Positions 6,829 to 52,212 of a stretch of DNA of 56,894 nt are shown one piece after another. The DNA comes from Fragilaria crotonensis (taxonomy: Eukaryota; Bacillariophyta; Fragilariophyceae; Fragilariales; Fragilariaceae): the NCBI GenBank assembly GCA_022925895.1, contig JAKSYS010000396.1:1-56894 (forward strand), read 5' to 3'. Each line of letters begins with the position of its first letter. Within the stretch, counting starts at the first letter, position 1. The notes beneath the pieces are model-generated. The model worked only from the letters and a program-made list of their open reading frames with translations. It was not told the DNA's origin and ran no database searches. Both the position numbers and the translations under genes were made by a program.

Positions 6829-6831
6829 TCA
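6829..6831 (-). other. O in-frame gag/pol stop, UGA-CGG
   Basis: Gag ends DENSD-UGA and the next codons CGG GGA GGG stay open in the same frame into pol. No ATG lies at the start of pol: the codon at 6807 is TTG. UGA followed by C is a known leaky context, so readthrough is inferred. Confidence 0.6.
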
Positions 6832-7633
6832 ATCACTGTTTTCGTCGGATACTTCATGCTCAGCAACCTTCTGCTCCATCTTTGCAACATAGGCCTTAGC
6901 AATCTTCAACTTCTTGACGATTCCTTTCTTGTTGTCTTTGTTGTCGGAGCTTGCGGTTCTCTTCGTCGCATGTGTTTCCGAGTTGGGTGGTGGTGCACCT
7001 CCGCGGCAGTCCTTGGGCTTGTGTGCCCTCCTTTTTTCGCAGGTGCCGCCGGTGTCCTTGCCACACCAGTAGTAGGTGAATTCCTTGAATTTGGCTACCT
7101 TCTTCTCACCGGGCTTTGGTGGAGGCCAGTTCTTAGGGTGTTCAGCCTTTCCACCATCCTTGCCCGATTGTTTGGTCCGCTCTCCGGTCTTGCTTTTCCC
7201 TGTGGACGCACTTTTCTTTCCCATCTCGATGGAGACCTTTTTGTTCAGGTTCTTCATTGTGGAGGTGAGCTTCGCTTCGAGAGCGACGATCTTTTCCTCC
7301 GCTGTGGGGGCGTTCCAGGTACCTTTCTCGACCATGGCGTCGTACTTGTTCTTCGCCGATATCATCAAGTCGTCAGGGGATATTTCGTTCCCCTCCTCGT
7401 GGTCGTCCTGCTTGCGAGTGAGCCAAGCTCTGAACGTCTCGTCGCTCACTGCACCATAACCCTTGAAGAGGTTGATGAGAAGGTCAGAGGTTGTCTGGTT
7501 TCTCGCCGACAATGACTGGATGAGGAGCTTGACGTATTGGTTGAACTTTCCGATATCGCTGTTGATGGTGATGATGTATGTGTCCAACGTCGACAACTTG
7601 GTTCGGATTTGATTCGTTGTCGCGTTCGTGTCC
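6829..7633 (-). pseudogene. O gag, 3' portion
   Basis: This is the C-terminal two thirds of the O Gag, reading from DTNATTNQIRTKL to DENSD. It has a helical region, a Lys-rich linker and a zinc-knuckle-like stretch (YYWCGKDTGGTCEKRRAHKP, then KDC) of the kind used to bind genomic RNA. Its 5' edge at 7633 is the left insertion point of N1, and the codons continue at 15104/15105. The first 20 or so residues of the computed frame (7634-7695) belong to N1, not to Gag. Confidence 0.85.
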
Positions 7634-7959
7634 TTACATGGTCTGTGGTAGCCTAGTACTACGGTGCCTCCAGCGACACTAGCACCCAACAACACAGTAT
7701 GCGGTACCGAGACACTACGCCGTTATTAACAAAGCAGGCAGCCACGATGCACATGATATATTTTCTTCGGGTGTGGATACTGGATTGAACTACGAGGCAG
7801 GTCACCATTCGAATGCTCACACCAAAAAGAGCAGAAACGTGATCTCGCCGATCGAAGCTGGAGTGGGAAATTATTGGCTCACATCTATCCATCATCGGAT
7901 TGATTGTGCCTTCTCCACACCAGCATCCCATCCAAGCAACTAGCTTTAATATTTAATTT
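7634..7959 (+). repeat. N1 repeat A1
   Basis: The first copy of the 326-bp A repeat starts TTACATGG and ends TTTAATATTTAATTT, four bases before the ORF1 ATG. It differs from A2 at two positions near its start (G/C in TGTGG, G/A in TACGG). It probably carries the promoter and leader; no clear core element was identified. Confidence 0.92.
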
Positions 7960-7962
7960 TCA

Positions 7963-10047
7963 ATGGTGTCCGTTTCATTTGTCGACACTAACGCAGTCCA
8001 CAAATGGACCGATTTCTACGAGAAGAATAGGACCGACGGAGGTTCCATCCAGATGCTCTTCGAGGCAAACGCAACAGCCCTTGCCGCTCGGACGCGTAGT
8101 CACCTCAACGACCCCAACAGGCTGACCGAGACTGTGGCGGGAAGCGATCACGGGAACATGATCCTCGTCCCCGGCGCCGAAGGAATCATGCAGCTTATCC
8201 ACCACGGGTTTGCCTGCAACACCGAATCGTCGTTTGTACTAGCCTTCGCCCACGGTAACCTGGGAGAAAGCACAACGTTCAAAGTCGTTGACAGAAACGA
8301 AATGACCAGACCAGCTGTGTTGGAAGGGGTCGCAGTCCCTAGCTTGGAGGGTATGATGAGCGCCGAGTCACCCGAAGAGTTTGGCGCCGTCGAGGCGGAG
8401 GGAAACAACATCCTTGAAGTCTACCCGAACCACTGCCTAGTTACGCCTAGCATTTTCGCTTCGGCGCAAGGATCCAAACTCATCGACTCGAAAGCCCTAG
8501 CCTACCACATCATCGAATCGTTTCAATTATCGGTCGAAGACGACGATGAACTGAGTACCGAAAAAGAGGAAGAAGCGGCCGGATTGGAAAATACACTGGC
8601 ACTGCTCTGGGCGTCGAGCCACGGGCTCCTGAACGAAGTCAGACTGGAAGACGCCCCCGAGAGCACCATGATGAACCACCTCATCAAGGGGGTCAGGGAC
8701 AAACTGGCGGGACGTGACGCCACGCTACCGCCCGGCCCCACCACAGCACCAGCGGCGAGGTCCGGAGGAGAAGCGGCTAGCATGGAATTGATGGCAGCCT
8801 CTTCCCAAAGCATGGTGGCCCTACTGAGCAAATTCCAAGATGGGAGCGAGGCCGAGAGCCGTCGCAAGGAAGCTGACAAGTCGATATTCAAAACCATGGG
8901 CCCGACCCAACGCGACCTCTTCACGTCTCTGTGCACTCGACGGATGAACGTAGAGCCCGCGATGACCATGTTCATGAAAAGCCTCGCATCGAGCGCAACG
9001 CCACAAAAGGCGTTTAACCTAATCCAGTCCGAAACCAGGGATTGGGAGGGGACGTTCTCAGCCGGCGGTTTCCACAAGTTACTCTCTCACGGATTCCTCT
9101 CGCAAGACCCTAACCGCGCAAACCCTGGCGGCTTCACCATCTTCATGTTCTATCCGAAGACGGTCGACCTCGGGGTCAAAGGTGAGAAAGGAAGCAACGA
9201 GCTCCTCCGGGAGTACCTCGGGATGGACGTGTCAGAAGCAACGCTCGAGTTCTACATGAAACAAGGGTTCTACACGCCCAGCTCGCCCACCGACCTCCGC
9301 ATCCAGCTCCAGACGGCGCTCGACATGCTGGAACTCCTGACGTGCGACGGGACCATAGCGGGAAAGGGGCTGGCCTTCATACTGGAACCAAAGCGATGGG
9401 CACGCATGTCCACTGTCCTGAACGACCGATTCAAGACCGAGAAGGACTTTGGGGCCAAGTTCTGCTACACTCTGGATCGCCACCTCCAGACCTTCCTCAA
9501 CAAGATGACCAGGTGGGAAGACATTGCCACAGATGGCCAGCCGCGTTACCTCACCAACAAAGCCGAGGAACTCCTTGAGCGCCTCGAGGATGGACAAGGA
9601 CTCAACATCATGCTGCCTGTCGCTCTGAGCAGCTCCATGACGGCCCCGGCCGGCAAGAAGCGCAGTGGAGCGATGGCAACGGTCACGCCGGATAAGACAG
9701 GAAAGAAGAAGAAGGCAGCCACGCCTGGGGGACCCACACCCGACGAGTCCGACGCCATCCATGCGAACGCCGATACCGTCGCCGCGTGGACACTCCCAAC
9801 AGGGATCAAGTACCTTGACCTGTTCGACGCAAAGATGCCCGGTCTGAAGGGATGGCCGATCCTGCTCGACACGCGGATACCGAAGAAACAGAACCGCGCC
9901 CAGAAGGCGCCCATGTGCGTACGTTTCCAAGCCCTGGGAAAGTGCAAGCAAAGCTGCACTCTGGCCCACATCGCGGCGACCGGCATGCCAGACGACGCTC
10001 GAAACAAAGCCGATTCATTGTTTCGCACCGCCTACACACCTGTCTGA
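7963..10047 (+). CDS. N1 ORF1, Gag-like protein
   Basis: A 694-aa ORF whose ATG lies just after A1. It is in the gag position of a YR retrotransposon and is presumed to be the structural RNA-binding protein. No domain is recognised over most of its length. Near the C-terminus is a Cys/His cluster, CVRFQALGKCKQSCTLAH (C-x8-C-x3-C-x3-H), preceded by a basic linker (GKKKKAA), which fits nucleic-acid binding. It ends in UGA-CAG. The same frame stays open to 10716 and contains the 34-residue repeats, so an extended form by readthrough is possible. The same frame also matches the downstream RT ORF, with two further stops between. Confidence 0.75.
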   Translation: MVSVSFVDTNAVHKWTDFYEKNRTDGGSIQMLFEANATALAARTRSHLNDPNRLTETVAGSDHGNMILVPGAEGIMQLIHHGFACNTESSFVLAFAHGNLGESTTFKVVDRNEMTRPAVLEGVAVPSLEGMMSAESPEEFGAVEAEGNNILEVYPNHCLVTPSIFASAQGSKLIDSKALAYHIIESFQLSVEDDDELSTEKEEEAAGLENTLALLWASSHGLLNEVRLEDAPESTMMNHLIKGVRDKLAGRDATLPPGPTTAPAARSGGEAASMELMAASSQSMVALLSKFQDGSEAESRRKEADKSIFKTMGPTQRDLFTSLCTRRMNVEPAMTMFMKSLASSATPQKAFNLIQSETRDWEGTFSAGGFHKLLSHGFLSQDPNRANPGGFTIFMFYPKTVDLGVKGEKGSNELLREYLGMDVSEATLEFYMKQGFYTPSSPTDLRIQLQTALDMLELLTCDGTIAGKGLAFILEPKRWARMSTVLNDRFKTEKDFGAKFCYTLDRHLQTFLNKMTRWEDIATDGQPRYLTNKAEELLERLEDGQGLNIMLPVALSSSMTAPAGKKRSGAMATVTPDKTGKKKKAATPGGPTPDESDAIHANADTVAAWTLPTGIKYLDLFDAKMPGLKGWPILLDTRIPKKQNRAQKAPMCVRFQALGKCKQSCTLAHIAATGMPDDARNKADSLFRTAYTPV

Positions 10048-10716: not shown

Positions 10717-11085
10717 GGAGTCGAGTCGCGACAGCCCCGGTTGGCAAACGACAGCCCTCTCCATGGGCCGCCCCAACCTCTCCCAAGCGCGACCAACCAA
10801 CGAGCGCCACTAGGAGGGGGGAGGAACGCAATGCGGGCAGACTCGAAGCCGCCGACCACGTTGACAGAGAAACACTAGGTGAGTTACTATCGAACGTCGT
10901 GCGCCCCTACAAGATGAGTCCGCTCCCCAGCGACGCCGCGCTGTTCTTCCCCGAACCCCTCGAGGGTCCCACCACCGTGGTTCCTGGAAGGAATAAAGAG
11001 GATCTGTGCCAACGAGTCACCCACTCCCACCAAGTCGCCCATTCGCTTTGACTTATCCGACCAGGCCGTCGAACACAACGCAAAG

Positions 11086-14890: not shown

Positions 14891-14904
14891 CCCCAAGCCC
14901 ACCC

Positions 14905-15550: not shown

Positions 15551-15555
15551 GGGGG

Positions 15556-16065
15556 TGTCAGTGCATATCTCATCTTTGCCACTGTGCTACTGTCTACCAT
15601 ACACAGTCCACTGCATCTACTCCAGCTTACTGCATTACCGCCTTACTCCACAGTCTTGATTCATGGCATGGTCATGACGGTACGGTACAAGCTACTGGAT
15701 ATCTCAGTACATCCAATCTACTTGTTCTGGATTGTACTGTTGCATCCTACTTTGATAGTCTAAAGGCAGTGCCTCCTGACACTGCTCACAACTTTAACTT
15801 AGCCTAAACTATTACCTCCACTGCATTCTTGCCGGTCTACGATCGTAAGGGTGAAGAGGTACAGTTGTTGCTTTTCGTCCCCATCTATAACTCACGACAT
15901 CACCATCACCGACACCCTCGCCACTGCGTACCTCGTCGGATATCGCCGCGCTTCCGTTCATTGTGCTGTCGTGTTCTCCCTCTTCTGTTTCTGACGGTCT
16001 CGCACTAACTCGACTCCCAAGCGAGTCAATGTATGTGGAGCCGCCGTACTAGAGAGGGTCTCACA
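15556..16065 (+). repeat. N2 LTR 1
   Basis: 510 bp, TGTCAGTGCATATC...AGGGTCTCACA. Compared with LTR 3 it has two extra T in GCTTTTCGTCC. It is followed at once by the primer-binding site. Confidence 0.92.
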
Positions 16066-16079
16066 GGTTATGAGCCCAA
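16066..16079 (+). other. N2 primer-binding site (Met-tRNA anticodon arm type)
   Basis: GGTTATGAGCCC follows the LTR. Its complement, GGGCUCAUAACC, fits an anticodon arm with loop CUCAUAA (anticodon CAU). This matches the half-tRNA priming known for Drosophila copia. The tRNA identity is inferred. Confidence 0.5.
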
Positions 16080-16233
16080 AGTCTACGACTATACTCTGCG
16101 TCTACTCCGACGAAGTCTGCGTTCTCTCGTGTTCTTTGTGTCACACAATATCAAGAACCACGTAGCCACTCCGAGTTGAATTTCTTCTCGACCATCTATC
16201 CGGGACCGCGTATTTCTGAACCCCGATACTATC

Positions 16234-17478
16234 ATGGTGAACGCTGAGGAGATCCGATACGATGATGACTGTCTTGTGATCAGCATCAATATTGTGGACT
16301 GCCCGATGGCAGAAATCCCACTCACAGAAGTCTTTGATGTTCTCACAATGTCACTACTTGACAACTACCATGATGTTATTAGTAATTCGGTTCTCCAGCA
16401 GTTAGAAGACACAACATGGCTTAAAAGGCAATCAAGATCGAGCCTACTTTGCGCTAGTTTTGCCGTGTATCATCAAAGGACTGAAGGCAAACTCATTTCC
16501 TTGCGCAAACCAGGTTTACAGAGACTGATAACTCAGGCTCTACGCTACAACAATGGAGTTCATCATCCAATCAAAGTGCCAGTCTCCATCCGTTTTATGA
16601 TACCTGACAATGCCCTTCCGCGCCCCCAGCGGCACTCATCCAACAAGAGAAACCCACCCTTGTTCTTCGATGACCGGCGCTCGATATCCAGCGAAGTGCC
16701 GAATGTTGCTCCCCTCCATTCGCCTGATTTCACTCGAAGTGACGATTTGCTCGATGCTCCGCCCAGGGCTGCTGAGGCAGGCTACATCATCGGTAGCAAC
16801 CACAGTGATCCTATTGAAACCTATCGAAATGACAGGGTAACAGCAGCCGATGATTCTACAACAATGCCTTGCTACATCAATGTTCCTGGCTGCGAGTTTA
16901 TTGATTGTCGTTTTCTGTTCCATTGCAAGGGCCTTGAAACAAATGTGCCGGCTAAAGTTCTGGAAAGAGCAGAGGAGATTTCCACCCTGGCAAACGCGGC
17001 CCCTGAACGCCTCTGTTCCCCCACATTGCTCATGCAACATGCCATAAGTGACGACAAAGACAAGACGCAGATGGGATCGAATGCCGTTTTGTGTTGGGAG
17101 ATCGACTTCGTGCAGGCTTCTTCAGCATCTTCTGGGCTAGTTGCCGTCGCCAAAATTGGCACACCGCCCAACAACAATATTGCAACTCAGATGCCAATTT
17201 GGCCGGCTGCTGCCTTGCTGTCCCCGTTCCCCCCTGCTGAAGGCACTATGACTGATAGCAGGGCCACCCTTGGTATGCCTTATGTTCCTGGCATGGCTGC
17301 TGATGGCAATCGGTTACTCCTCCCCATCAACATGAGGTTCAAACCGGTCGACCGCGGGCGCCCAATGGATATAGTATGGACACTCTTGTCATACAACATC
17401 ATCAGCTGCACCAGTGTCCAAGACTCTTTCCATCAGCTTTGGAAAGATGTTATTGACGCAATGGCGCCGAATGTCTGA
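16234..17478 (+). CDS. N2 unidentified 414-aa ORF in gag position
   Basis: An uninterrupted ATG ORF starts about 170 bp after the LTR. I do not recognise the protein. It has no zinc knuckle, protease motif or RT motif. It has a predicted-helical N-terminal half (LTEVFDVLTMSLLDNYHDVI), a Pro/Arg-rich middle (PRPQRHSSNKRNPP) and a C-terminal part rich in small residues (GMPYVPGMAADGNRLL). Position suggests a Gag-like structural protein of a non-autonomous element. The homologous stretch 27477-28712 in the second unit is broken by several 1-2-nt deletions, and the two copies are otherwise almost identical. Confidence 0.5.
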   Translation: MVNAEEIRYDDDCLVISINIVDCPMAEIPLTEVFDVLTMSLLDNYHDVISNSVLQQLEDTTWLKRQSRSSLLCASFAVYHQRTEGKLISLRKPGLQRLITQALRYNNGVHHPIKVPVSIRFMIPDNALPRPQRHSSNKRNPPLFFDDRRSISSEVPNVAPLHSPDFTRSDDLLDAPPRAAEAGYIIGSNHSDPIETYRNDRVTAADDSTTMPCYINVPGCEFIDCRFLFHCKGLETNVPAKVLERAEEISTLANAAPERLCSPTLLMQHAISDDKDKTQMGSNAVLCWEIDFVQASSASSGLVAVAKIGTPPNNNIATQMPIWPAAALLSPFPPAEGTMTDSRATLGMPYVPGMAADGNRLLLPINMRFKPVDRGRPMDIVWTLLSYNIISCTSVQDSFHQLWKDVIDAMAPNV

Positions 17479-18982
17479 GTCTGGTGCTATCCTTCTTGCT
17501 CATTGTATGTCGCCTCTACCAATGCACACAATGGGGGAGTGTATAGGATATCACGATCCACAACCTCGCATGGCATGGTGCGTGTAATCATGTGTCTGCT
17601 GACCACACCTGTTGGGTCTACGTCGTGGTGACGTAGTATCAGTAAGGCCGGGTCAGTCCACTGGACGAGTACTCATCAAACACTGCACGCTGCATGCTGT
17701 AGTTTTGGGTTCTTGATGAGGGAATTCAATACTCGGTTGATTGTCACAGACAACTTAGCAAACCTTTGGGAACGAGTGTTTCTGTTTGTTTGGATTAGGT
17801 GAAAATCGTCCGCAATGCTTCTCTGGATGCTCTGCCTTGCCTCCTGGATTTCAAGCACCCACCACTACCGTCGGAACATTCACACCAGCTTTCTATGCAT
17901 GATGCTAACGCTTTGATTAGTGATGATCTCATGCTGCCTGATTGGGAGATGTTCACGAGTTCATGAGTTCTTGTGCACCAGTGGAATCGAACTGCCATTT
18001 GCAGTTCGACTATCTGTTCTTTCTTTGTGGAACTGCCCCTGGTGTAACCAACGCGTACTGTGATTCATTTTCCGGGACCCTTTGGACACCGTTGGGTCAC
18101 TGATTCCTTTCGTGTCAACAGCGATGGCTCGGTCGGATGAAGTCCTGGTTTGCTCCACACTGGATGCTCATATTGTCCAGCTATGGCCACCCTCATGCTC
18201 TTAGGGATTGCACCGCCGTCAAGTACTTCAAACTGTTGATGCTGACATCTTTGGTTCAGGTTTGTACAGGACGTCTGGACCATTCAACCAACCAACTGTT
18301 CCTTCAGCATCATTGTGATATCGCCTCGCACTTCTCGCTCCCTCGAGGTCATTCGCTGTCGCTGAGGACTTGGTCATCGGCCTCGTCCTGCATTCAACAA
18401 CCATGCTTAGACGCCTCGCTCTTTCCTCCGTTGTTTTGTGGTTTCGATAGTTTCCGATCCCTTTTTCCTCGAGACTTGGTCGACGCTGACGCAATTAAGC
18501 TATACAATCAGGCACCCAACCTCTTGATGTTGTTCTTTCTGATGGGGTACCTCGCATCGACAGCCAGTGCCTGCTTTTGTCACCGACATGGGATGGTGAT
18601 GCTGATCTCTTGCGCGCTGCTTCTGTTTTCCCTCTGGGTTGGTGTGGTGTGCTGGGCCCATCTTTTTCTGGCGTTGTAATCCTGGCTGTCAATGATCCCT
18701 CGCTCTGTGTTGCCTCGCTCTTGCTGCGGCGTGTTGAGAGGATTGCTGTTGCCGGGTGTCCAACCAACGCAACGGTACGGTACAGTTCTGTTGCCTATGG
18801 TCTCGCACTGAACCGGTGGTCCGGTTGAGCAACCACTACGCGCAAAGTTATGCACTTGCGACACTTCGGATACGAAACTCGGCAGCGGTTTTGAGATCAC
18901 AATATTCGACAATTATCGTGGCTTCGGATCGCGTGGAGGCGCATGCGACAGGCATGCGGGTCGTGGCTGACCACGGCGGTAG
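17479..18982 (+). other. N2 internal region, no assignable gene
   Basis: About 1.5 kb between the 414-aa ORF and the N3 insertion. Short frames look weakly coding (NASLDALPCLLDFKHPPLPS near 17815; DVVLSDGYCIDSQCLLLSP near 18530), but none is long or recognisable. CACAATGGGGGAGTG at 17527-17541 mimics the polypurine tract used before the LTR, which hints at an internal rearrangement. The same sequence recurs at 28713-30206. Confidence 0.5.
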
Positions 18983-19137
18983 TGAATAAAACCTACCGTT
19001 ACTACTGGAAATCCATCATTGTGGGGCAGCATGGCATTAGTGATTAGGATAGAACAAGATTATAAACTAAGTCCGGAGAAAACCCCACTTGGTCTGGCCG
19101 TAGCCCAATATGACGCAGACACAGTAGAATTCGTTCA
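18983..19137 (-). repeat. N3 3' LTR
   Basis: On the minus strand it runs TGAACGAATTC...GTTTTATTCA. It is preceded on that strand by the polypurine tract GCTCGCGGGGAC. Confidence 0.92.
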
Positions 19138-23466: not shown

Positions 23467-23469
23467 TCA
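23467..23469 (-). other. N3 in-frame gag/pol stop, UGA-CGC
   Basis: Gag ends NANSD-UGA-CGC-AAG-GTC, and the same frame runs on to the protease. An ATG lies four codons later, so re-initiation is an alternative, but UGA-C favours readthrough. Confidence 0.6.
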
Positions 23470-26145: not shown

Positions 26146-26149
26146 GTAG

Positions 26150-26594
26150 TACCACCAGGTACCTCGGAAACGCGGTCACAACACTCGCCTCTTCGGACAG
26201 CAAAGGTGCACTACGACGCGTTATGTTGTGTCGCATGGTACCTACGTATGACCAAACACTGGGGCTACTTTATTGATACAACACGCTTCTATTGTTGATT
26301 CCCCCGGAGATTTCATGTCTCATGCTTCTGATTTGCCTGCCTCTCCCTGAGTTCCTGCAATCGCAAACTTTGACCGAACTGGCCAGTTACGTGGATGCGG
26401 CGCATGCTACGGACTTTGTCACGTGCCATTCGATCACTGGTCTTGTCATAATGCTCTCCTGGGATGGTCCCATGGCCTTCAACAGGTCCAAGATTCAGTC
26501 GACGTCCTCCCCTAGCTCAACAGAAGCCGAATTTCTTGCTGCAGCTCATGCCGCAAAGATTGTCAAGCAACAATTCGATCCTGTTCAAGCTTGA
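26150..26594 (+). pseudogene. N2 unit 1 copia RNase H remnant
   Basis: The end of a copia pol retained in N2. It contains KVHYDALCCVAWYLRMTKHW (the RT-RNase H connection, in one frame), then in another frame ASYVDAAHATDFVTCHSITG and SSTEAEFLAAAHAAKIVK. Stop codons and frame changes separate them. The 3' end (CAAGCAACAATTCG) differs from unit 2 by a small rearrangement that ends the ORF early. RT core and integrase are absent, so this is a relic. Confidence 0.75.
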
Positions 26595-26802
26595 TATCCT
26601 CAACTTGGCCCAATCATGTCTGAAGATAGCAGACTCCCTGTCGGCATTTCTCGGTTCCACGTTCCACCATTGCCTTGATTGTCGTTTGATGGGTCCCTAC
26701 AGCGCTCCCTGGACACCTCCGGTTTCCTAAATGTTCTTCCCTTGTTCCTGGATGCACTTCTGTTGCTCATTGCAAGCCTCTTCTGCTCACAATGGGGGAG
26801 TG

Positions 26803-27308
26803 TGTCAGTGCATATCTCATCTTTGCCACTGTGCTACTGTCTACCATACACAGTCCACTGCATCTACTCCAGCTTACTGCATTACCGCCTTACTCCACAG
26901 TCTTGATTCATGGCATGGTCATGACGGTACGGTACAAGCTACTGGATATCTCAGTACATCCAATCTACTTGTTCTGGATTGTACTGTTGCATCCTACTTT
27001 GATAGTCTAAAGGCAGTGCCTCCTGACACTGCTCACAACTTTAACTTAGCCTAAACTATTACCTCCACTGCATTCTTGCCGGTCTACGATCGTAAGGGTG
27101 AAGAGGTACAGTTGTTGCTTCGTCCCCATCTATAACTCACGACATCACCATCACCGACACCCTCGCCACTGCGTACCTCGTCGGATATCGCCGCGCTTCC
27201 GTTCATTGTGCTGTCGTGTTTCTCCCTCTTCTGTTTCTGACGGTCTCGCACTAACTCGACTCCCAAGCGAGTCAATGTATGTGGAGCCGTACTAGAGAGG
27301 GTCTCACA
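26803..27308 (+). repeat. N2 LTR 2 (shared middle LTR)
   Basis: 506 bp. It is preceded by the polypurine tract CAATGGGGGAGTG and followed by the primer-binding site GGTTATGAGCCC. It thus serves as 3' LTR of unit 1 and 5' LTR of unit 2, with no target duplication beside it. Confidence 0.92.
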
Positions 27309-27322
27309 GGTTATGAGCCCAA
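27309..27322 (+). other. N2 unit 2 primer-binding site
   Basis: A second copy of GGTTATGAGCCC directly after LTR 2, identical to 16066-16079. Confidence 0.5.
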
Positions 27323-27476
27323 AGTCTACGACTATACTCTGCGTCTACTCTGACGAAGTCTGCGTTCTCGTGTTCTTTGTGTCACACAATATCAAGAACC
27401 ACGTAGCCACTCCGAGTTGAATTTCTTCTCGACCATCTATCCGGGACCGCGTATTTCTGAACCCCGATACTATCAT

Positions 27477-28712
27477 GGTGAACGCTGAGGAGATCCGATA
27501 CGATGATGACTGTCTTGTGATCAGCATCGATATTGTGGACTGCTGATGGCAGAAATCCCACTCACAGAAGTCTTTGATGTTCTCACAATGTCACTACTTG
27601 ACAACTACCATGATGTTATTAGTAATTCGGTTCTCCAGCAGTTAGAAGACACAACATGGCTTAAAAGGCAATCAAGATCGAGCCTACTTTGCGCTAGTTT
27701 TGCCGTGTATCATCAAAGGACTGAAGGCAAACTCATTTCCTTGCGCAAACCAGGTTTACAGAGACTGATAACTCAGGCTCTACGCTACAACAATGGAGTT
27801 CATCATCCAATCAAAGTGCCAGTCTCCATCCGTTTTATGATACCTGACAATGCCCTTCCGCGCCCCCAGCGGCACTCATCCAACAAGAGAAACCCACCCT
27901 TGTTCTTCGATGACCGGCGCTCGATATCCAGCGAAGTGCCGAATGTTGCTCCTCCATTCGCCTGATTTCACTCGAAGTGACGATTTGCTCGATGCTCGCC
28001 CAGGGCTGCTGAGGCAGGCTACATCATCGGTAGCAACCACAGTGATCCTATTGAAACCTATCGAAATGACAGGGTAACAGCAGCCGATGATTCTACAACA
28101 ATGCCTTGCTACATCAATGTTCCTGGCTGCGAGTTTATTGATTGTCGTTTTCTGTTCCATTGCAAGGGCCTTGAAACAAATGTGCCGGCTAAAGTTCTGG
28201 AAAGAGCAGAGGAGATTTCCACCTGGCAAACGCGGCCCTGAACGCCTCTGTTCCCCACATTGCTCATGCAACATGCCATAAGTGACGACAAAGACAAGAC
28301 GCAGATGGGATCGAATGCCGTTTTGTGTTGGGAGATCGACTTCGTGCAGGCTTCTTCAGCATCTTCTGGGCTAGTTGCCGTCGCCAAAATTGGCACACCG
28401 CCCAACAACAATATTGCAACTCAGATGCCAATTTGGCCGGCTGCTGCCTTGCTGTCCCCGTTCCCCCCTGCTGAAGGCACTATGACTGATAGCAGGGCCA
28501 CCCTTGGTATGCCTTATGTTCCTGGCATGGCTGCTGATGGCAATCGGTTACTCCTCCCCATCAACATGAGGTTCAAACCGGTCGACCGCGGGCGCCCAAT
28601 GGATATAGTATGGACACTCTTGTCATACAACATCATCAGCTGCACCAGTGTCCAAGACTCTTTCCATCAGCTTTGGAAAGATGTTATTGACGCAATGGCG
28701 CCGAATGTCTGA
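27477..28712 (+). pseudogene. N2 unit 2 copy of the 414-aa ORF, frameshifted
   Basis: This stretch is nearly identical to 16234-17478 but has lost single bases or pairs at several places: CTGCTGATGG for CTGCCCGATGG near 27541, one or two C near 27950, 27997, 28222 and 28238, and one near 28254. Readable pieces are 27546-27965 and 28260-28712. Most losses are in C runs, so they may be basecalling errors rather than decay. Confidence 0.7.
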
Positions 28713-30206
28713 GTCTGGTGCTATCCTTCTTGCTCATTGTATGTCGCCTCTACCAATGCACACAATGGGGGAGTGTATAGGATATCACGATCCACAACCT
28801 CGCATGGCATGGTGCGTGTAATCATGTGTCTGCTGACCACACCTGTTGGGTCTACGTCGTGGTGACGTAGTATCAGTAAGGCCGGGTCAGTCCACTGGAC
28901 GAGTACTCATCAAACACTGCACGCTGCATGCTGTAGTTTTGGGTTCTTGATGAGGGAATTCAATACTCGGTTGATTGTCACAGACAACTTAGCAAACCTT
29001 TGGGAACGAGTGTTTCTGTTTGTTTGGATTAGGTGAAAATCGTCCGCAATGCTTCTCTGGATGCTCTGCCTTGCCTCCTGGATTTCAAGCACCCACCACT
29101 ACCGTCGGAACATTCACACCAGCTTTCTATGCATGATGCTAACGCTTTGATTAGTGATGATCTCATGCTGCCTGATTGGGAGATGTTCACGAGTTCATGA
29201 GTTCTTGTGCACCAGTGGAATCGAACTGCCATTTGCAGTTCGACTATCTGTTCTTTCTTTGTGGAACTGCCCCTGGTGTAACCAACGCGTACTGTGATTC
29301 ATTTTCCGGGACCCTTTGGACACCGTTGGGTCAGTGATTCCTTTCGTGTCAACAGCGATGGCTCGGTCGGATGAAGTCCTGGTTTGCTCCACACTGGATG
29401 CTCATATTGTCCAGCTATGGCCACCCTCATGCTCTTAGGGATTGCACCGCCGTCAAGTACTTCAAACTGTTGATGCTGACATCTTTGGTTCAGGTTTGTA
29501 CAGGACGTCTGGACCATTCAACCAACCAACTGTTCCTTCAGCATCATTGTGATATCGCCTCGCACTTCTCGCTCCCTCGAGGTCATTCGCTGTCGCTGAG
29601 GACTTGGTCATCGGCCTCGTCCTGCATTCAACAACCATGCTTAGACGCCTCGCTCTTTCCTCCGTTGTTTTGTGGTTTCGATAGTTTCCGATCCCTTTTT
29701 CCTCGAGACTTGGTCGACGCTGACGCAATTAAGCTATACAATCAGGCACCCAACCTCTTGATGTTGTTCTTTCTGATGGGTACTGCATCGACAGCCAGTG
29801 CCTGCTTTTGTCACCGACATGGGATGGTGATGCTGATCTCTTCGCGCGCTGCTTCTGTTTTCCCTCTGGGTTGGTGGTGTGCTGGGCCCATCTTTTTCTG
29901 GCGTTGTAATCCTGGCTGTCAATGATCCCTCGCTCTGTGTTGCCTCGCTCTTGCTGCGGCGTGTTGAGAGGATTGCTGTTGCCGGGTGTCCAACCAACGC
30001 AACGGTACGGTACAGTTCTGTTGCCTATGGTCTCGCACTGAACCGGTGGTCCGGTTGAGCAACCACTACGCGCAAAGTTATGCACTTGCGACACTTCGGA
30101 TACGAAACTCGGCAGCGGTTTTGAGATCACAATATTCGACAATTATCGTGGCTTCGGATCGCGTGGAGGCGCATGCGACAGGCATGCGGGTCGTGGCTGA
30201 CCACGG
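28713..30206 (+). other. N2 unit 2 internal region, no assignable gene
   Basis: Second copy of 17479-18982, with a few indels near 29779-29876. No gene is recognised here. Confidence 0.5.
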
Positions 30207-30744
30207 CGGTAGTACCACCAGGTACCTCGGAAACGCGGTCACAACACTCGCCTCTTCGGACAGCAAAGGTGCACTACGACGCGTTATGTTGTGTCGCATG
30301 GTACCTACGTATGACCAAACACTGGGGCTACTTTATTGATACAACACGCTTCTATTGTTGATTCCCCCGGAGATTTCATGTCTCATGCTTCTGATTTGCC
30401 TGCCTCTCCCTGAGTTCCTGCAATCGCAAACTTTGACCGAACTGGCCAGTTACGTGGATGCGGCGCATGCTACGGACTTTGTCACGTGCCATTCGATCAC
30501 TGGTCTTGTCATAATGCTCTCCTGGGATGGTCCCATGGCCTTCAACAGGTCCAAGATTCAGTCGACGTCCTCCCCTAGCTCAACAGAAGCCGAATTTCTT
30601 GCTGCAGCTCATGCCGCAAAGATTGTCAAGTACCTTTGGTCGATCCTGTTCAAGCTTGGATATCCTCAACTTGGCCCAATCATGTCTGAAGATAGCAGAC
30701 TCCCTGTCGGCATTTCTCGGTTCCACGTTCCACCATTGCCTTGA
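30207..30744 (+). pseudogene. N2 unit 2 copia RNase H remnant
   Basis: This is the fuller copy of the relic. It carries the RT-RNase H connection (KVHYDALCCVAWYLRMTKHW), then the longest readable RNase H frame (30355-30744) with YVDAAHATDFVT, SSTEAEF and AAKIVKYLWSILFKLGYP. A frame change separates the two parts. It includes the uninterrupted N3 target site near its start. Confidence 0.78.
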
Positions 30745-30868
30745 TTGTCGTTTGATGGGTCCCTACAGCGCTCCCTGGACACCTCCGGTTTCCTAAATGT
30801 TCTTCCCTTGTTCCTGGATGCACTTCTGTTGCTCATTGCAAGCCTCTTCTGCTCACAATGGGGGAGTG

Positions 30869-31376
30869 TGTCAGTGCATATCTCATCTTTGCCACTGTGC
30901 TACTGTCTACCATACACAGTCCACTGCATCTACTCCAGCTTACTGCATTACCGCCTTACTCCACAGTCTTGATTCATGGCATGGTCATGACGGTACGGTA
31001 CAAGCTACTGGATATCTCAGTACATCCAATCTACTTGTTCTGGATTGTACTGTTGCATCCTACTTTGATAGTCTAAAGGCAGTGCCTCCTGACACTGCTC
31101 ACAACTTTAACTTAGCCTAAACTATTACCTCCACTGCATTCTTGCCGGTCTACGATCGTAAGGGTGAAGAGGTACAGTTGTTGCTTCGTCCCCATCTATA
31201 ACTCACGACATCACCATCACCGACACCCTCGCCACTGCGTACCTCGTCGGATATCGCCGCGCTTCCGTTCATTGTGCTGTCGTGTTCTCCCTCTTCTGTT
31301 TCTGACGGTCTCGCACTAACTCGACTCCCAAGCGAGTCAATGTATGTGGAGCCGCCGTACTAGAGAGGGTCTCACA
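30869..31376 (+). repeat. N2 LTR 3
   Basis: 508 bp, preceded by CAATGGGGGAGTG and ending CTCACA. It is followed by the duplication GGGGG (31377-31381) and resumed O gag. Confidence 0.92.
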
Positions 31377-31425
31377 GGGGGCCATCGACGGCTTGAGCCG
31401 GAGCCAAAGCGAAGTTAGCAGCCAT
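31377..31425 (-). pseudogene. O gag, 5' end with start codon
   Basis: The first codons of the O Gag (ATG at 31425, MAANFALAPAQAVDGP) are separated from the rest by N2. Joined to 15550, the frame passes straight into LDYSRAEHHK. The ATG lies only 23 nt inside the 5' LTR edge. Confidence 0.82.
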
Positions 31426-31448
31426 TCTAGCTTAGCGCAGAGGAAGCG

Positions 31449-31590
31449 TGAAATTAAAGTTGATTCACTTCGGTGAAAAAGTAAAATTATAAAGATAAAT
31501 CTATTCTTCAAACTCCGAACACGAGTACTGGTTCGCTCGTATCCGGTATGTATTGCACGATCAGAATTTCACAATGAAATTCCGATGACC
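31449..31590 (-). repeat. O 5' LTR, inner part
   Basis: 142 bp matching 2282-2423 with one substitution seen (G/C after ACGAGTA). It is cut at 31590 by N5. Confidence 0.9.
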
Positions 31591-31845
31591 TCAGTTGATT
31601 CCCTCGCAAGAGCGGCGCATCCGCCATTGCCAGGGACGACTCTAAGACATGTAGTAATCAACTAGTAGCAGCATGCAACTTGACTATTTACAAAAAGAGT
31701 GAGCTTATTCTAGACTTGTTCCCTCATGCCGCGGATGAAGTGTCCCATCCGCGCATGCGTACGTGGCACGCGTCTTGCGTCAGCCCAAGATACTTCGGTC
31801 TGTCCCGGTGTCCGAATATCCCGCACTCATGGCAGAATTCATTCA
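31591..31845 (-). repeat. N5 3' LTR
   Basis: On the minus strand it begins TGAATGAATTCTGCC after the polypurine tract GAGGGGAC. It ends CAACTGA, so the terminus is GA, not the usual CA. Confidence 0.9.
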
Positions 31846-32032
31846 GTCCCCTCGAGCTAACCGTCAGAGACGACTAGTTCGACCGAATTCGTCAATGCAG
31901 TGGCCGGCCGACTTCGGCTAGTTCGTGGTGGTTCCACGTGTCATCACGTGTACATCCACCCATCCGTTTTGGGGGTTAGTGGTTCCATAATCATTATGTA
32001 CTCCACTCGTAACCGCGTCCTTTTTGGACCAG

Positions 32033-36269: not shown

Positions 36270-36272
36270 TCA
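36270..36272 (-). other. N5 in-frame gag/pol stop, UGA-UGC
   Basis: In the frame shared by gag's C-terminus (KQFGRAAHGEQQKQA) and pol (CLAPALVKTDDLMLV), a single UGA intervenes. It is the only one of the five copia gag/pol junctions without C after UGA. Confidence 0.5.
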
Positions 36273-41298: not shown

Positions 41299-41520
41299 TG
41301 AATAAATACTGTGGTACTGTGTACTGATGTACGGTTGCGTTGTGTGTGGTTTCATTGACCGTTACACATGCACTGTGCTAGTGTTAGCGATAGAGTGTTT
41401 GCGTGAGCGTATGAACTTACTTATCTTAAGATCTTATCTTCTTTATCCTTTTACTCTCTTGTTACTACTCTAGTAAGTCTATTGCGAGCGTAGCGTTAGT
41501 GAGGCGGCTAGATTTACACA
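41299..41520 (+). repeat. N4 5' LTR
   Basis: 222 bp, TGAATAAATACTG...GATTTACACA. Confidence 0.92.
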
Positions 41521-41534
41521 GTTTATCAGACCCA
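41521..41534 (+). other. N4 primer-binding site
   Basis: GTTTATCAGACCCA right after the LTR, identical to N3 and N5 although the rest of the leader differs. Confidence 0.55.
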
Positions 41535-41815: not shown

Positions 41816-43267
41816 ATGGCTGAAGCTCCTATTGCCCTAGTTGGTATGAACCATGTCCTTAATGTCATCGGTTTCGATGACATCAATGATAGGGACAATA
41901 TTATGGTGGCGGGACTTGCGCAGTTTGAGGATTTTCGTTACCTAGTCGAGAAGGATATTCGTGAAATGGCGGAGGAATTCGGGAAGCGTACACAGGCGAC
42001 TGGTAGGGTTGTTTTTGGGCTTGGAAGAACTAAAAAGTTAATTGGCGTGATGCATTGGGTTCAGGACTGTTACAGAGCGAGTGATATTCCTAACCATGAG
42101 CACTTTGATGAGGAGGCACTATTTGAAGCGTTAAGTATGGCACAGATCCGAAAATCCGACATGGAGTTGGTTGCCACAAACTCAAAGGCAGCGGACCCGG
42201 GGAAGTTCAAGGATGAGCGTAAGTGGCCCGAATGGGAGAAAGCGTTTACTAACTACTTATCGGTCATTCCAGGAGTCAGTGGTATTCCTCTCTCATACGT
42301 CGTGAGGGAGCAAGATGAGCCTACCCCCGGGATGGAGTACTCTACTTTCAATGAGCGAATGGTGCACCGCGCACCGTTGACAGGTCAGTATTTTATAGCT
42401 GATGCCAGGAGGGTTCATAATCTACTGGTCGGGTTCCTTCAGGGAGAAAACACAGAGAATTGGATTCGTAATATCGCAAAGTATCAAGATGGGCGTCGTG
42501 ACATGTTCGCGTTGCGACGTCATTATGCTGGTGAAGGAAATTCGACGCGACGTATCGCAGATGCCAAGCGGATTCAAAACTCCCTCCATTACAAGACAGA
42601 GCGAGCGTTGCCATTCAACAAGTTCCTAGACTCTCTACAGCGTATGTTCACGATATTCGAGGAGGAGAATGAACCACTAACGGAGCGCGCAAAGGTGGAC
42701 GAACTATTGACTAAGGTGCAGAACACATCGTTGGCGGCCGCGGTAGCTCAGTTGAGGTATCAATTGAATACTGAAGGCATTTCTTTTACCGTTGCTGCTA
42801 ACCACTTAAACTCCGAGATTTCGCAGACGTCTGACTATCAGCTGGCAAGAAAGATAAGCGCTTATGGTACTGGCGGTCGTGGCACTGGTCGCGGCGGTCG
42901 GTCTAGCGGACGTGGCGGTCGACATGCCGGTCGCGGACGAGGCGGCCGCAGTGGACGAGGCACTACTAATGAAAAGGCATCGAATACAGGGTACTATTCT
43001 GCGGCGGAATGGGAGAAACTGTCGTACGAAGAACGCGACAAAATCCGCAAGGAGCGTGACAAGAAAGGAGAGCAGGGTGGTACTAAGCGACACATTTCTG
43101 AGTTAACCACCAAACAATTGACCACAGCAATCATCAGCTCCATTCAAAAGGCGGTTATGGCAGATGACTCAAAGGAGGACGATACGGCGTCAAAGAAAAC
43201 CAACAACCAAGCCGGTAATTCCTTTGGCGGGAAGGAAAGCGTGAAACGTACGAAGACTAGCGAATGA
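41816..43267 (+). CDS. N4 Gag with RGG-type basic tail
   Basis: A 483-aa intact ORF from ATG 41816. The N-terminal short helical domain (LNVIGFDDINDRDNIMVAGL) matches those of N3 and N5 Gag. A central capsid-like part includes WPEWEKAFTNYLSVIPGVSG and IPLSYVVREQDEPTPG, which corresponds to the same region of N5/N6. Residues about 345-378 are an Arg/Gly-rich box (GRGGRSSGRGGRHAGRGRGG), likely the RNA-binding element in place of a zinc knuckle. A conserved TGYYSAAEWEKLSYEERDKI follows. It ends SE-UGA-CUA, in frame with pol. Confidence 0.88.
   Translation: MAEAPIALVGMNHVLNVIGFDDINDRDNIMVAGLAQFEDFRYLVEKDIREMAEEFGKRTQATGRVVFGLGRTKKLIGVMHWVQDCYRASDIPNHEHFDEEALFEALSMAQIRKSDMELVATNSKAADPGKFKDERKWPEWEKAFTNYLSVIPGVSGIPLSYVVREQDEPTPGMEYSTFNERMVHRAPLTGQYFIADARRVHNLLVGFLQGENTENWIRNIAKYQDGRRDMFALRRHYAGEGNSTRRIADAKRIQNSLHYKTERALPFNKFLDSLQRMFTIFEEENEPLTERAKVDELLTKVQNTSLAAAVAQLRYQLNTEGISFTVAANHLNSEISQTSDYQLARKISAYGTGGRGTGRGGRSSGRGGRHAGRGRGGRSGRGTTNEKASNTGYYSAAEWEKLSYEERDKIRKERDKKGEQGGTKRHISELTTKQLTTAIISSIQKAVMADDSKEDDTASKKTNNQAGNSFGGKESVKRTKTSE
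43265..43267 (+). other. N4 in-frame gag/pol stop, UGA-CUA
   Basis: The codons are GAA TGA CTA CAG. UGA CUA is the best-known eukaryotic readthrough context. The pol frame continues without an ATG close by: the codon at 43289 is GTG. Confidence 0.7.
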
Positions 43268-47463: not shown

Positions 47464-47685
47464 TGAATAAATACTGTGGTACTGTGTACTGATGTACGGT
47501 TGCGTTGTGTGTGGTTTCATTGACCGTTACACATGCACTGTGCTAGTGTTAGCGGTAGAGTGTTTGCGTGAGCGTATGAACTTACTTATCTTAAGATCTT
47601 ATCTTCTTTATCCTTTTACTCTCTTGTTACTACTCTAGTAAGTCTATTGCGAGCGTAGCGTTAGTGAGGCGGCTAGATTTACACA
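47464..47685 (+). repeat. N4 3' LTR
   Basis: 222 bp, preceded by the polypurine tract CGAGGGGAC (47455-47463). Confidence 0.92.
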
Positions 47686-47689
47686 GTAA

Positions 47690-47764
47690 AGCTGAGCTAA
47701 ATCCTTCGACGGTCGTGCTTATCCGGGTGTCCGAATAACTCGAACTCATGATAGAATTCATTCA
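47690..47764 (-). repeat. N6 3' LTR, proximal part
   Basis: 75 bp ending ATAGAATTCATTCA as in N5, followed by GTCCCCTCGGG, the complement of the polypurine tract. Confidence 0.85.
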
Positions 47765-47990
47765 GTCCCCTCGGGCTAGGCGTCACAGACAACTAGTCCG
47801 ACCCATATTTATCATGCAGAGGCCGGCCACCATTGGCTAGTTTTGGTGGTTCCACGTGTCGTCACGCGTACGTCCACCCATTCGCTTACATAAAGCTGGG
47901 GTTAGTGGTTCCACGTACGTCGTGTACTCCACTCGCATCATGTCACACCTGGACATTTTGCACGCCAGTATCATGTCCGTTTTGGACACT

Positions 47991-50900
47991 TTACCACAGA
48001 ACGCGAGAACACAACTCTCTTAGTCGCGGTCCCGGAAGACACTTAGTCAGAACATCTGCCAAGTTGGTTTCTCCGTCTTCCTTCGCAATCCTCACAATAC
48101 CAGCAGCTTGCGCTTTGCACGCGGTGATACGCGATTGCATTATGCTTCTTTTTCAAAGTCGACTCGGGCTTGGTTGAGTTCTTCACAACCGATTCATTAT
48201 CACAAAAGACATTCGTGGGTCCATCCACTTGACGCCCATCATGCGCAGCTTGTAACGCAACCCTTCAACCATTTCGACTGCAATCTTTGCAGCGATAAAC
48301 TCAGATCCAAAGGTAGAAGCCTCAACAGTGTTCTGTCGCTTCGAATACCAAAGGATTGGTGCTCGATTCACAAAAATCAAGACTCCAGTATGTGAGCGGC
48401 GAGTGACGCGACAACCAGCGTGGTCAGCGTCGACAAAACAACTCATCGATACCGATTGTCCCGGACTTCGGGCGCATCCGGCGGTAAAGCTTCACACGCG
48501 CCAGGATAGTACTCGCTCCAATCACATTTTTGAAAGCGACTCTCATCAAACACTGGTTCCGTATCGTCGAAGACCATGCTTGACCTGTTGTACCGTTTCA
48601 AGTATGCAAAGATATGGAAAGCCTGATCAAGATGTCCCCGCCTTGGAGAAGCCAGGAAACGCGACAACATTGCAACGTCTACCAGAATGTCAATCCGACC
48701 AAGTTCGCAAATCCAACGCAATACTCCAATCAAACCCTGGAAGTAGTTTGCACGCTTTGCATCCAACTCCGGAGTAGTGTCAATTTCAGGTCGGTAACCT
48801 TGACTCATGGGTGTCGACACTTTCGTGCTCAGACGTTCACCAATCTCCTCAAGCTCGCGTTCAACTTCGGTCACAGCCCGTTTCACATAAAGATCAGACA
48901 ACATTGCCCACCTTACCTTTGTTGGGTTCTCTGCACCATCAATTGTCCACTTCTTGACTTCAGCGCCCAAGTAAGCGTCAGGTTCCTTTACACTCCCTTT
49001 CTTCAAGGTATACTTGGAAGCGAGATAGTCCATCACAACTTGTGGCTCATGTGAGATGCAAAGAATGTCATCCACATAGCAAAGGACATACTCCCAGTAC
49101 TTGTCCCCATTCGGCTTCACCTTAGGTCTCATCCACACGTCAGGATCACCTTTGCAGCTGACAAAGCCTCCTTCGCGTAACGTGGATGCCATGTGGTCTC
49201 GCCATCGAGCACCACTTGACTTAAGACCATAGAGCGCCCGGACAATAAGAACTGGTCGGCCAACTTTGTCCGCTCCAAATTCCAACCCTGCGATTGTGTA
49301 GACCTTCTCCTTCGTAGGAGCGTTCAGGTATGCCCCTTGCACATCGGCAGAAAGGACATCCAAGTCATTCAGCGCTGCCAACGTGAAAGCAATCCTTATG
49401 CTGTCGCGCGAAACAACACTTGAATATGTTGACTCTTTCGGCGGATCAGTTTGATGCCCTCCGGCAACTAAACGCGCCTTCTCGTCAAATCCATTTTGAC
49501 ATCAAAGATCATGTGGCAGTCAATCTTTTGTAGAACTTGGGCGCTTCGTCGCCGTCAATGAACTCGAATGCCGGCATAACATTCTTCATTTCCTGCTCCA
49601 TCGCCTTTCTCCAAAGTCGGTCCCCGTTCGTTCATCGATCTTAAGGGCCTCCGCCACCGTCTTCGGCAGTTCAATTCCGAACTTATGCGTCTTAGCCCAG
49701 TATCTGGCCTTGACCTTCTTTATGATTCGATCCCGTTTGCGCAGAGCCTTGCGTACCCACCAAGCAAATGCCGGTTCTTCAGCAATCTTGTTGGCGACAG
49801 CATACCCGCAACCTCCACCGGGTTTGACTCCTCAATTCTGACAATGGAACCCAGGTCGTTGAACCATCGCGCCACTCGACTTGCAAATCCCAGCCTCGCG
49901 TAGTGATTCGCGGATGCCTCTTACCATATCGGTCTTCCACGAAGCCATCATCCTTTGAAATAGCGTGGCCATTAGTCCGATGGTCGACAATCTCACTCAA
50001 CACAGAATAGCTTCGTCCCTCGTCATCAACCTGGGACAGCATGTTCTCCGCGATCAGGTTAGCCGCAATTGCTTCTGTCGAACCGTCAGGGAATTCCACC
50101 TCGTATAAGCGAGTATCCAACAACGGGTTTGCGTGACGCTTGCCAATCGGCCGACCATCATGGTCGCGCTTCCTCCCAACGACGGTTGCCTTCTTGGCTT
50201 CACCGCCCTGGGGAAGGAGCACCTGAGCAGTCAAATATTCATCATAAGATTCAGGGGTGTGGTCATCGGTTCCCTCATCAGGACTTGGCGTGTCCCCTGG
50301 ATCGTTACGACCTTCGTCTTCATCGTCAAAGACGTCATCTGAGATTTCCGGCATGGAACCTCTCAGTTCTGGGTCGATGTCCTCCTCCTTGAGATCATCC
50401 CCAATTTTGGAGCGGATGCCCTCATCCAACTCCACGAGCCGAGTCTTTATGTCAGGATTAGCAAAGTCATCTTCGCTCAGTCCCCAGACAGACTTGCGGA
50501 CAATAATCTTCCCAGTCTTAGTCAGAAGGTAAAATGCCATCAGGTCTGTTGAGACTTCGGCAACTCCAAGCCACCGTCCAAGCAACTTCTGCACATGTGG
50601 GAAGGTACCAACTACCAACTGGATCCCAATACAAGACTGGCTCATACCAATCAAACTGGGCATACTGGGAGATGTCTGGTGTAGATCCCAACACGTCTTT
50701 GTCGGGAACTCTTCCCTGGAGTTGCGGCATATCAAGTGCCGTCAATCGTCGAATCGCCGCCACCCACTTACCGCAGAAACACCAAAGGCGTCTCGGTGCC
50801 TTCGAACGACGTAAGGTTCTCCGGATCCCAACCTTCAGCTCTCGAATCGTTGACTCCGCCAGGTTCGACCATGGACTGTAAGGAACTGTTTGCTCTTGCC

Positions 50901-52209
50901 GAATTCGAAATTGGCGACAGATCTTCCCAAACTCCCCGTGGACTTCCTCTGGTGCATTGTCAGTCACAATCGTCTGGGGTATTCCAACCTCTTGGATAAA
51001 GGGCATCAGAGCATTTGGTCCGCCATGCTCTTGCTCTTCATGGGATAGAAGTGATTGCTCCTCGACCATTCGTAAACACTTGCGCCGTCAAGTGTCCCTG
51101 ATCGATTGCGTCTTCGAGAACATAGTATCCGAGTACCACTTACCGCTCAAGTTGGGGAACGCAAGGTGATCGAGTTTCTGACGCACTTTCCTTTCGCCTT
51201 TTGCCAAAACATTCCTGATTCCGGATTGCGTTGTCACTTTCAATGTCCTCTTAGCAGTGTCAAGGCCAACTCCCCACCTCCGAGAAAGGATCTCAGGTGT
51301 TATGACTGATCGTTTGTCGCTCGTAGAAAGGGCAAACTTTCGGCTTTCGTCGTCCATCGGATAAACGTCATTGTCGTTGCGACCGGACAAGCCATCTCCA
51401 ACAGTGTCATCTGCTGCGACATTGACTGCAGCCACCAAGCGATCCGCCAGAGAGCCATCCTCCTGACCGATGGTGATGCATTGCACGCAAAGATTGCACC
51501 GCAGAAACCAACCTGAAGCATTCCGCGCATGATCAGTTGCCAACAACTTTTCAGCAACGCACACGCTGGAAACATATGTCTCCTCCTTTTTGGCAAACTG
51601 GTCAGAAGAGGGATCCCACCGCATCGGGGATGTCAATTCCACGTGAGGATATTGCTCGTATTCCGCCCACGTTGGCTTACGACTCACAAACCCAGAAGAG
51701 ATACCGTCAAGGGATAAAGGAATACGCAACTTTGCGGTTGGGTGAAAAATAGAATGCGAAGACTTGGGGTCAAACTGTCATGGAACATCCTCAACAATGA
51801 CACCATTCGCGCGTAATTGATTTGGGTTCAGCAGAGTGACATCTACTCGGTCCCCAAAATACAGAGCCTCATTGACAATGAGGATGTATGGTTGTCCATT
51901 CTGAGGATGGATCCACATAGTCGCAACCGTGGCGATGGAAACATCCTGTATGGGTCTATATTCACCACTGTAAGGGTGAACAGTGACCTGACGACCTTCG
52001 TCAGAGAGAAGCAGAGTGTTGCGACCTGCAACACAAGTATCCGCATGAGAATCTAGTTCAGTCCTCATGTCATCGTCATCGTTGCCGCATGGCTTGGACG
52101 AGACACCAAAGACATGTTTCACAAAACGGGAAGAGCAAAAGGCCCGGCCTCTTGAACATAAGATTCACCTAACTTTAGGTCTGTCTTAACAAGAGCCGGT
52201 TCGGATCGT
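47991..52209 (-). pseudogene. N6 pol, many frameshifts
   Basis: Homologous end to end with N5 pol. The readable pieces are: protease (52122-51778, LDSHADTCVAG), integrase (51729-51088 and 51069-50518, with WYSDTMF, VTDNAPEEV and LAESTIREL), linker and chromo-like region (50735-49779, RGWDLQVEWRDGSTTWVPLS), RT (49381-48443, LSADVQGAYLNAP and CYVDDILC) and RNase H (48446-48183 and down to stop TAA 47991, CFVDADHAG and FGSEFIA). At least eight indels are needed. The T-run deletion at the RT start (GACTTTGGAGA near 49615) occurs at the same place as in N5. Non-functional. Confidence 0.85.
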
Positions 52210-52212
52210 CAA
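52210..52212 (-). other. N6 in-frame gag/pol stop, UGA-CGA
   Basis: The frame reads RAAHVEQQKPA-UGA-CGA-TCC and then EPALVKTDLKLGESYV, homologous to the N5 junction. Confidence 0.5.

Follow-up and report, generated by a model that had tools for sequence, protein, structure and literature searches.

Does a single in-frame UGA between gag and pol mark a retrotransposon as dead, or is it a stop codon that a minority of ribosomes would pass? The question is raised by five copia-like elements (O, N3, N5, N4 and N6) in a stretch of 56,894 nucleotides (nt) from the diatom Fragilaria crotonensis, contig JAKSYS010000396.1. This stretch, called the window below, is contig C333 within an assembly of 62.1 Mb and 881 contigs. 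Copia-like elements crowd it, and frameshifts and stops have disrupted many of these. Comparison of the window junctions with their relatives throughout the genome indicates that they are very probably type II programmed stop-codon readthrough signals that yield Gag-Pol.

The gag-pol junction in the window and in the genome

An earlier note on this DNA had placed gag and pol of all five elements in one frame across a single UGA. This holds for O, N3 and N4 (Table 1). The N5 stop is properly placed at the end of gag, which is frameshifted a little upstream in the window copy, and the window copy of N6 is frameshifted downstream of the stop, so that its gag and protease lie in different frames. 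The UGA positions given in the earlier note were correct apart from that of N6, which was off by one (52210-52212). Its observations that C follows the stop (position +4) in four of the five junctions, the exception being N5 with U, and that the pol frames of O and N4 have no nearby ATG, were both confirmed. In a relative of N5 (L125) and two relatives of N6 (L109 and L112) the stop is in register with the protease and is preceded by at least 212-214 open codons. In N3 no fewer than 154 open codons of the gag frame precede the stop, and an ATG is the fifth codon past it. A relative of N4 at C156 has a pol frame of 1357 codons, compared with 506 in the window copy.

When the protease regions of O, N4, N3 and N5 were used as protein queries, they gave at least 149, 150, 150 and 150 matches, respectively. 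The junction set consisted of 200 fetched pieces and the five window elements. L001-L146 are the 146 of the best 150 matches of the N4 search that lie outside the window, 14 further pieces came from the N3 and N5 matches, and L161-L200 were taken from the 149 O-protease matches listed, 20 being chosen as relatives of O and 20 for their long open frames. Clustering at 80% nucleotide identity produced 87 clusters, of which 55 passed a mechanical rule (an in-frame stop upstream of the protease). After three had been dropped, 52 families with a homologous, readable gag end remained. The other 32 clusters, which have no junction passing the rule, are single open reading frame (ORF) clades or broken copies. 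The three dropped families all have the stop TAA: F41 (L185), whose partner L186 is open through; F50 (L059), a member of the single-ORF NECDTNADTCC group; and F51 (L060), in which the open gag frame finishes at TGA-C in a different frame. When these are put back, the counts are 51 UGA, 3 UAA and 1 UAG, with C next in 48 of 55. The families are related by descent, their counts are not independent, and the p values given below are indicative only.

The gag stop is UGA in 51 of the 52 families and UAG in one (L184). Over the 154 copies of these families the homologous triplet is UGA in 151, with UGG, UAA and UAG occurring once each; 136 of the copies have C after the triplet. The earlier note had named an outcome contrary to readthrough, in which most intact copies would have a sense codon or a junction out of frame, and within the 52 readable families this is not what is seen. 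The leaky context that it had predicted is present: the base following the gag stop is C in 46 families, U in four, A in one and G in one. The commonest hexamers are UGACUC (10 families), UGACUA (9), UGACGG (8) and UGACUG (5). As a background, the 55 representatives were read in their other two frames, where UGA accounts for 840 of 1452 stops (57.9%) and C follows in 415 of 1452; against this background the 51 of 52 gives a binomial p of 1.7e-11, indicative only.

The ends of pol served as a second control, made from the best 16 and the best 14 matches to the C-termini of N4 and O pol and covering the N4 and O groups only. It comprises 30 loci, two of them inside the window (L202 and L217), with 18 distinct contexts. 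The stops in these contexts are UGA (14), UAG (2) and UAA (2), and they are followed by G (12), A (3), U (2) or C (1). The C at +4 is therefore peculiar to the gag end (46/52 versus 1/18, Fisher p 2e-10). The contrast in stop type is weaker (UGA at 51/52 gag ends versus 14/18 pol ends, p 0.014), because UGA predominates among the stops at pol ends as well. Since all three stops are found there, with UGA the most frequent, UGA is an ordinary terminator in these elements.

A census took the longest open frame of each cluster (at least 150 codons, all copies per cluster). The frame ends in the protease frame in 44 clusters, in the other two frames in 9 and 7, is open through in 20, and is absent in 7. 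Among the 44, 39 end at TGA, 38 of these with C next; the other five are L184 together with L084, L076, L168 and L176, these last four being broken copies or clusters that are not among the 52. Several of the out-of-frame cases are broken copies from families that also have in-frame copies.

RNA fold and coding signature downstream of the stop

Segments of 70 nt beginning 6 nt past the stop have a fold excess over dinucleotide shuffles, with a mean z score of -1.58 for the 52 representatives, as against means of -0.52 to 0.30 for segments starting more than about 20 nt away from the stop. With 90-nt segments the strongest excess again falls on a start 6 nt past the stop (mean z -1.74, with 32 of the 52 below -1.5); for a start at 12 nt the mean has weakened to -0.54. 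The excess of the 90-nt segments over six gag segments has a Wilcoxon p of 1.7e-7 (n=52).

Compensatory changes support a predicted stem in two clades. In the O clade (10 sequences) this stem has 14 pairs, the core GGGUGGRC pairing with GYYUNNACCC. Six pairs are changed on both sides, and 89.3% of the alignment cells are paired, compared with 32-56% in slid versions. The stem of the FGPRR clade (8 sequences), between CCCCAACACC and GGUGUUGGGG with variants, has 13 pairs; six are changed on both sides, and 92.3% of cells are paired versus 39-49% when slid. Percent paired and covariation score are above all 500 shuffles in both clades. The consensus of the N5/N6 clade has 20 pairs, one of them changed on both sides, and that of the TSCAG clade 11 pairs, three of them changed on both sides. 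Alignment A6 was left unfolded because its stops did not align. Sequences L049 and L023 were omitted, as were L014 from A6 and L031, L035 and L036 from A8.

The codons immediately after the UGA behave as coding sequence in the pol frame, as would be expected if they are translated. Over the first 15 codons, in 15 pairs of related copies, substitutions number 17, 9 and 41 at codon positions 1, 2 and 3. The third-position share (41/67) differs from one third with p 2.8e-6, and of the 55 codons that differ, 30 do so synonymously. In alignable pairs, substitutions in the final 30 gag codons number 6, 7 and 43 at the three positions. Between the stop and the protease, 14 of the 52 families have no in-frame ATG, and in the other 38 its position is scattered. 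The periodicity after the UGA, together with the missing or scattered ATG, therefore favours continuous decoding through the UGA over a new start.

Single-ORF copia clades occur alongside the UGA families in the same genome. The NECDSNADTCC/NELDTNADTCC group contains seven loci without a stop (L055, L063, L065, L066, L068, L070 and L080). Of the 14 loci L187-L200, which are mostly classic DSGAS/DTGAS copia, nine stay open along the whole retrieved piece. The gag-end motif EFGRGAHKK, as in UGA families, is present in L075 and L078, yet these have no stop. At the corresponding place eight single-ORF relatives (L066 left out) have no mean fold excess (mean z -0.16 to 0.47), although single segments of L065 and L078 reach z of about -2. 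Stop and fold are therefore missing together in these relatives. As a separate observation, L075 and L078 have the gag-end motif in common with families F00, F06 and F09, which possess the stop. This could possibly be a natural case of switching between two modes of expression, by readthrough or from a single ORF.

Proposed readthrough and its alternatives

In the proposed mechanism, the gag of the 52 readable copia families would end at a leaky stop, UGA in 51. Most ribosomes would terminate there and release Gag. A minority would decode the UGA by means of a near-cognate tRNA, aided by the usual C at +4 and, for many of the families, by a stem in the RNA starting about 6-9 nt downstream, and would go on to translate the pol polyprotein without a change of frame. 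The outcome would be a low, fixed share of Gag-Pol from a single RNA, which would set the ratio of Gag to Gag-Pol. That readthrough occurs, as well as its rate, the tRNA used and its purpose, is what we infer from the sequence pattern.

A number of observations weigh against this reading, in addition to the shared descent of the families. With regard to the stop context, exact CUA or CGG follows the stop in only 17 of 52 families. Family F80 (L184) has UAG followed by G; F01 (the family of N5), F36 and F76 have U at +4, and F35 has A. The representative of F06 also has U, yet C is found in five of its six copies. L176, a broken relative of O outside the 52, has a gag end without UGA-C. The pol-end control is clustered: the 4 loci with C, out of 30, all belong to the group of element O itself. 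The fold is not universal either: 20 of the 52 families are not below z -1.5, 14 are above -0.6, and 7 are at or above 0. Thus the conserved 3' structure that the earlier note had suggested seeking was found as a group excess and in the compensatory changes of two clades, and not in every family. Within these two clades the number of pairs changed on both sides is only moderately unusual, shuffles reaching the observed value in 16/500 (O) and 9/500 (FGPRR), and for further pair types they do so in 66/500 and 158/500. Alignments A4, A8 and A9 gave no convincing consensus fold. From codon 16 to the protease the periodicity is weaker (52, 46 and 102 substitutions), with little in some O-like pairs and none in one of them (12, 10 and 12). 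Outside this genome, the junction of Tca2 alone was insufficient for readthrough in S. cerevisiae, according to the passages available from PMC2194720, and L232, a locus from another genome, has no in-frame UGA junction.

Three other explanations would also place a UGA at this position. The UGA might be a nonsense mutation in dead copies, or an assembly artefact, and frameshifts and stops have indeed plainly broken many copies, both in the window and elsewhere in the genome. Decay of this kind would not be expected to leave UGA at homologous positions in 151 of the 154 copies from 52 families, nor in copies with long open pol frames (for example L001, L005, L009, L022 and L036; 1353-1378 codons). 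On the cross-family table it was rejected as the cause of the UGA, and its probability is negligible. It is also very improbable that UGA is a sense codon here, or that splicing or editing takes the stop out of the RNA. Splicing has a precedent, for Drosophila copia balances gag against gag-pol in this way, as stated in the available part of PMC2194720. Against recoding, UGA ends pol in 14 of 18 distinct contexts, and pol frames open for more than 1300 codons contain no UGA; splicing or editing, for its part, predicts neither the C at +4, nor a 3' stem, nor a coding periodicity next to the stop.

Slightly more room is left for reinitiation or internal initiation, in which a separate Pol would start from an AUG shortly past the gag stop, although this too is improbable. 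An in-frame ATG is available between stop and protease in 38 of the 52 families, sometimes very near the stop, as in N3 and in the VAM motif of the KEFGRGAH families. The 14 families that lack one, and the scatter of the first ATG in the rest, are hard to reconcile with such a start. Moreover, reinitiation requires no preference for UGA over UAA or UAG, no C at +4, and no coding constraint just past the UGA. The register of pol with gag was part of the rule by which families were selected and is thus no independent argument against reinitiation.

Related systems and other features

Type II readthrough signals consist of UGA, generally with CGG or CUA next, and often a stem-loop about 6-12 nt downstream (PMC11166343, in the passages available). 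The diatom junctions resemble them in having UGA, C at +4 in 46/52, and a fold excess at a matching distance; CUA or CGG follows in 17/52. They differ from the cases in those passages, which are mostly viral, in being gag-pol junctions of long terminal repeat (LTR) retrotransposons and in their looser +5 and +6 bases. Moloney murine leukaemia virus (MuLV) likewise has an in-frame gag/pol stop with a downstream RNA structure that aids readthrough. It is a type III case, with UAG, a purine-rich spacer and a compact pseudoknot.

Tca2 of Candida albicans is a copia element. Its gag and pol share a frame across a UGA, with a potential structure downstream, much as in the diatom elements; unlike the diatom junctions, it has a purine-rich spacer and a pseudoknot as in MuLV (PMC2194720, in the part available). 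The earlier note had regarded conserved readthrough as an unusual strategy for copia elements. The conserved UGA-C, the fold and the coding signal support readthrough here as the probable strategy, but with Tca2 it is not unheard of. The fission-yeast Ty3/gypsy elements Tj1, Tosmo1-3 and Tcry1 have an in-frame gag-UGA-CU-pol, and the related Tf1 and Tf2 are single-ORF (PMC10085805, in the part available). An in-frame UGA junction in LTR retrotransposons with single-ORF relatives is thus common to both hosts. Unlike the diatom copia elements, these five are gypsy elements, and the passages of PMC10085805 describe a short context rather than a 3' stem.

The CoDi copia elements of Phaeodactylum and Thalassiosira also have diatom hosts, and in most candidate active elements among them gag is separated from pol by at most one stop codon or frameshift (PMC2806351, in the part available). 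The passages of that paper give no stop type, context, structure or reading as readthrough, and the passages on CoDi in PMC2774666 and PMC8147415 make no mention of a stop codon or of readthrough. Among the matches listed in the literature search (titles and openings of abstracts) no stop-codon readthrough was described for diatom retrotransposons, although earlier notice is possible. The mechanism is known; such breadth in the copia elements of one host is not described in the literature searched.

Readthrough between gag and pol is well studied in one group of retroviruses and, in the sources available, reported for a few yeast elements. A single diatom genome contains at least 51 sequence clusters with UGA at the gag end, 46 with C next and many with a 3' fold excess. 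They would form a large natural library on the leakiness of stop codons in a eukaryote beyond plants, animals and fungi. At only some 100 nt, the junctions are cheap and concrete to test. Annotation pipelines that demand one long ORF would score gag-UGA-pol elements as dead.

Three scans of IMG/VR viral contigs found no relatives. Two loci, L231 and L232, came from bacterial or archaeal genome bins. L231 (SIHH01000308.1), in a Phormidium metagenome-assembled genome, is a copia-like element with a gag of 613 open codons, UGA-UGC, and at least 683 codons of pol in frame, the protease lying 45 codons beyond the UGA. The contig is probably a eukaryotic contaminant of that assembly.

In 13 families the first 45 codons past the stop encode, in the pol frame, a membrane-like and strongly hydrophobic run of 19 residues with a mean hydropathy of 1.35-2.09. 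These are all ten O-like families, including the UAG family (L162, L163, L164, L167, L171, L174, L179, L180, L181 and L184), and all three of F27, F44 and F45 (L032, L035 and L036). The threshold of 1.3 was set after the values were seen. At this threshold each of the other two frames gives 0/10 in the O-like families, and they give 1/3 and 0/3 in F27, F44 and F45. Of the remaining families, 19 have a spacer of sufficient length, and these give 0/19 in the pol frame and 0/19 and 2/19 in the other frames. L184, at G000:C545:29583-31142, retains both the hydrophobic segment and the 3' fold excess (z -2.8) with its UAG-G junction. A tentative suggestion, which we consider less likely to be right than wrong, is that the post-stop codons of the O-like elements and the three TIVLG-group families encode a membrane-spanning segment, so that Gag-Pol alone would be anchored in the membrane and the leaky stop would sort Gag-Pol as well as set its amount. 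The segment would then be present in Gag-Pol only and would place the rare readthrough product in the cell or particle.

Table 1. Features of the gag-pol junctions and their elements in the window
Element	Feature	Positions	Strand	Remark
O	gag stop UGA, then CGG	6829-6831	-	
O	gag-side open frame, 297 codons	6829-7722	-	
O	pol-side open frame, 1018 codons	3772-6828	-	in register with gag
O	predicted 3' stem of the putative readthrough signal	6738-6826	-	alignment A2, columns 6-94
O	predicted stem arms			5' arm GGGUGGGCC, 3' arm GGCCUCAACCC
O	hydrophobic, membrane-like stretch directly past the stop	6695-6828	-	
N3	gag stop UGA, then CGC	23467-23469	-	
N3	pol-side open frame, 937 codons	20653-23466	-	in register
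N5	gag stop UGA, then UGC	36270-36272	-	
N4	gag stop UGA, then CUA	43265-43267	+	
N4	gag-side open frame, 487 codons	41804-43267	+	
N4	pol-side open frame, 506 codons	43268-44788	+	in register
N4	5' repeat (LTR part)	41299-41522	+	family D17, 100% identical to 47464-47687
N4	3' repeat (LTR part)	47464-47687	+	identical to 41299-41522
N6	gag stop UGA, then CGA	52209-52211	-	

Element O is of the Ty1/copia type by its pol domains, and N4 is flanked by identical LTR repeats (Table 1). The pol of O matches RVT_2 above the Pfam cut-off, and gag_pre-integrs and SH3_retrovirus below it. The sole Pfam match of N4 pol is rve, below the cut-off. The C-terminal pol stretches of N4 and O, which we take to be RNase H, match widely. 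No Rfam family matched at gathering scores across the window. The Pfam silicon-transporter profile has 18 matches above the cut-off in this genome and none above it in the control genomes; the host is therefore a diatom, as CoDi elements require. A single open frame of 1456 codons at G000:C97:29749-33762 holds three silicon-transporter domains.

Elsewhere in the window, near-identical repeats (D1 and D5-D10) at 15555-19000 and 26146-31850 surround an ORF of 414 codons (16234-17478, + strand), which has no Pfam match above the cut-off and no gag-end motif. These repeats are perhaps those of a non-autonomous LTR-type element.

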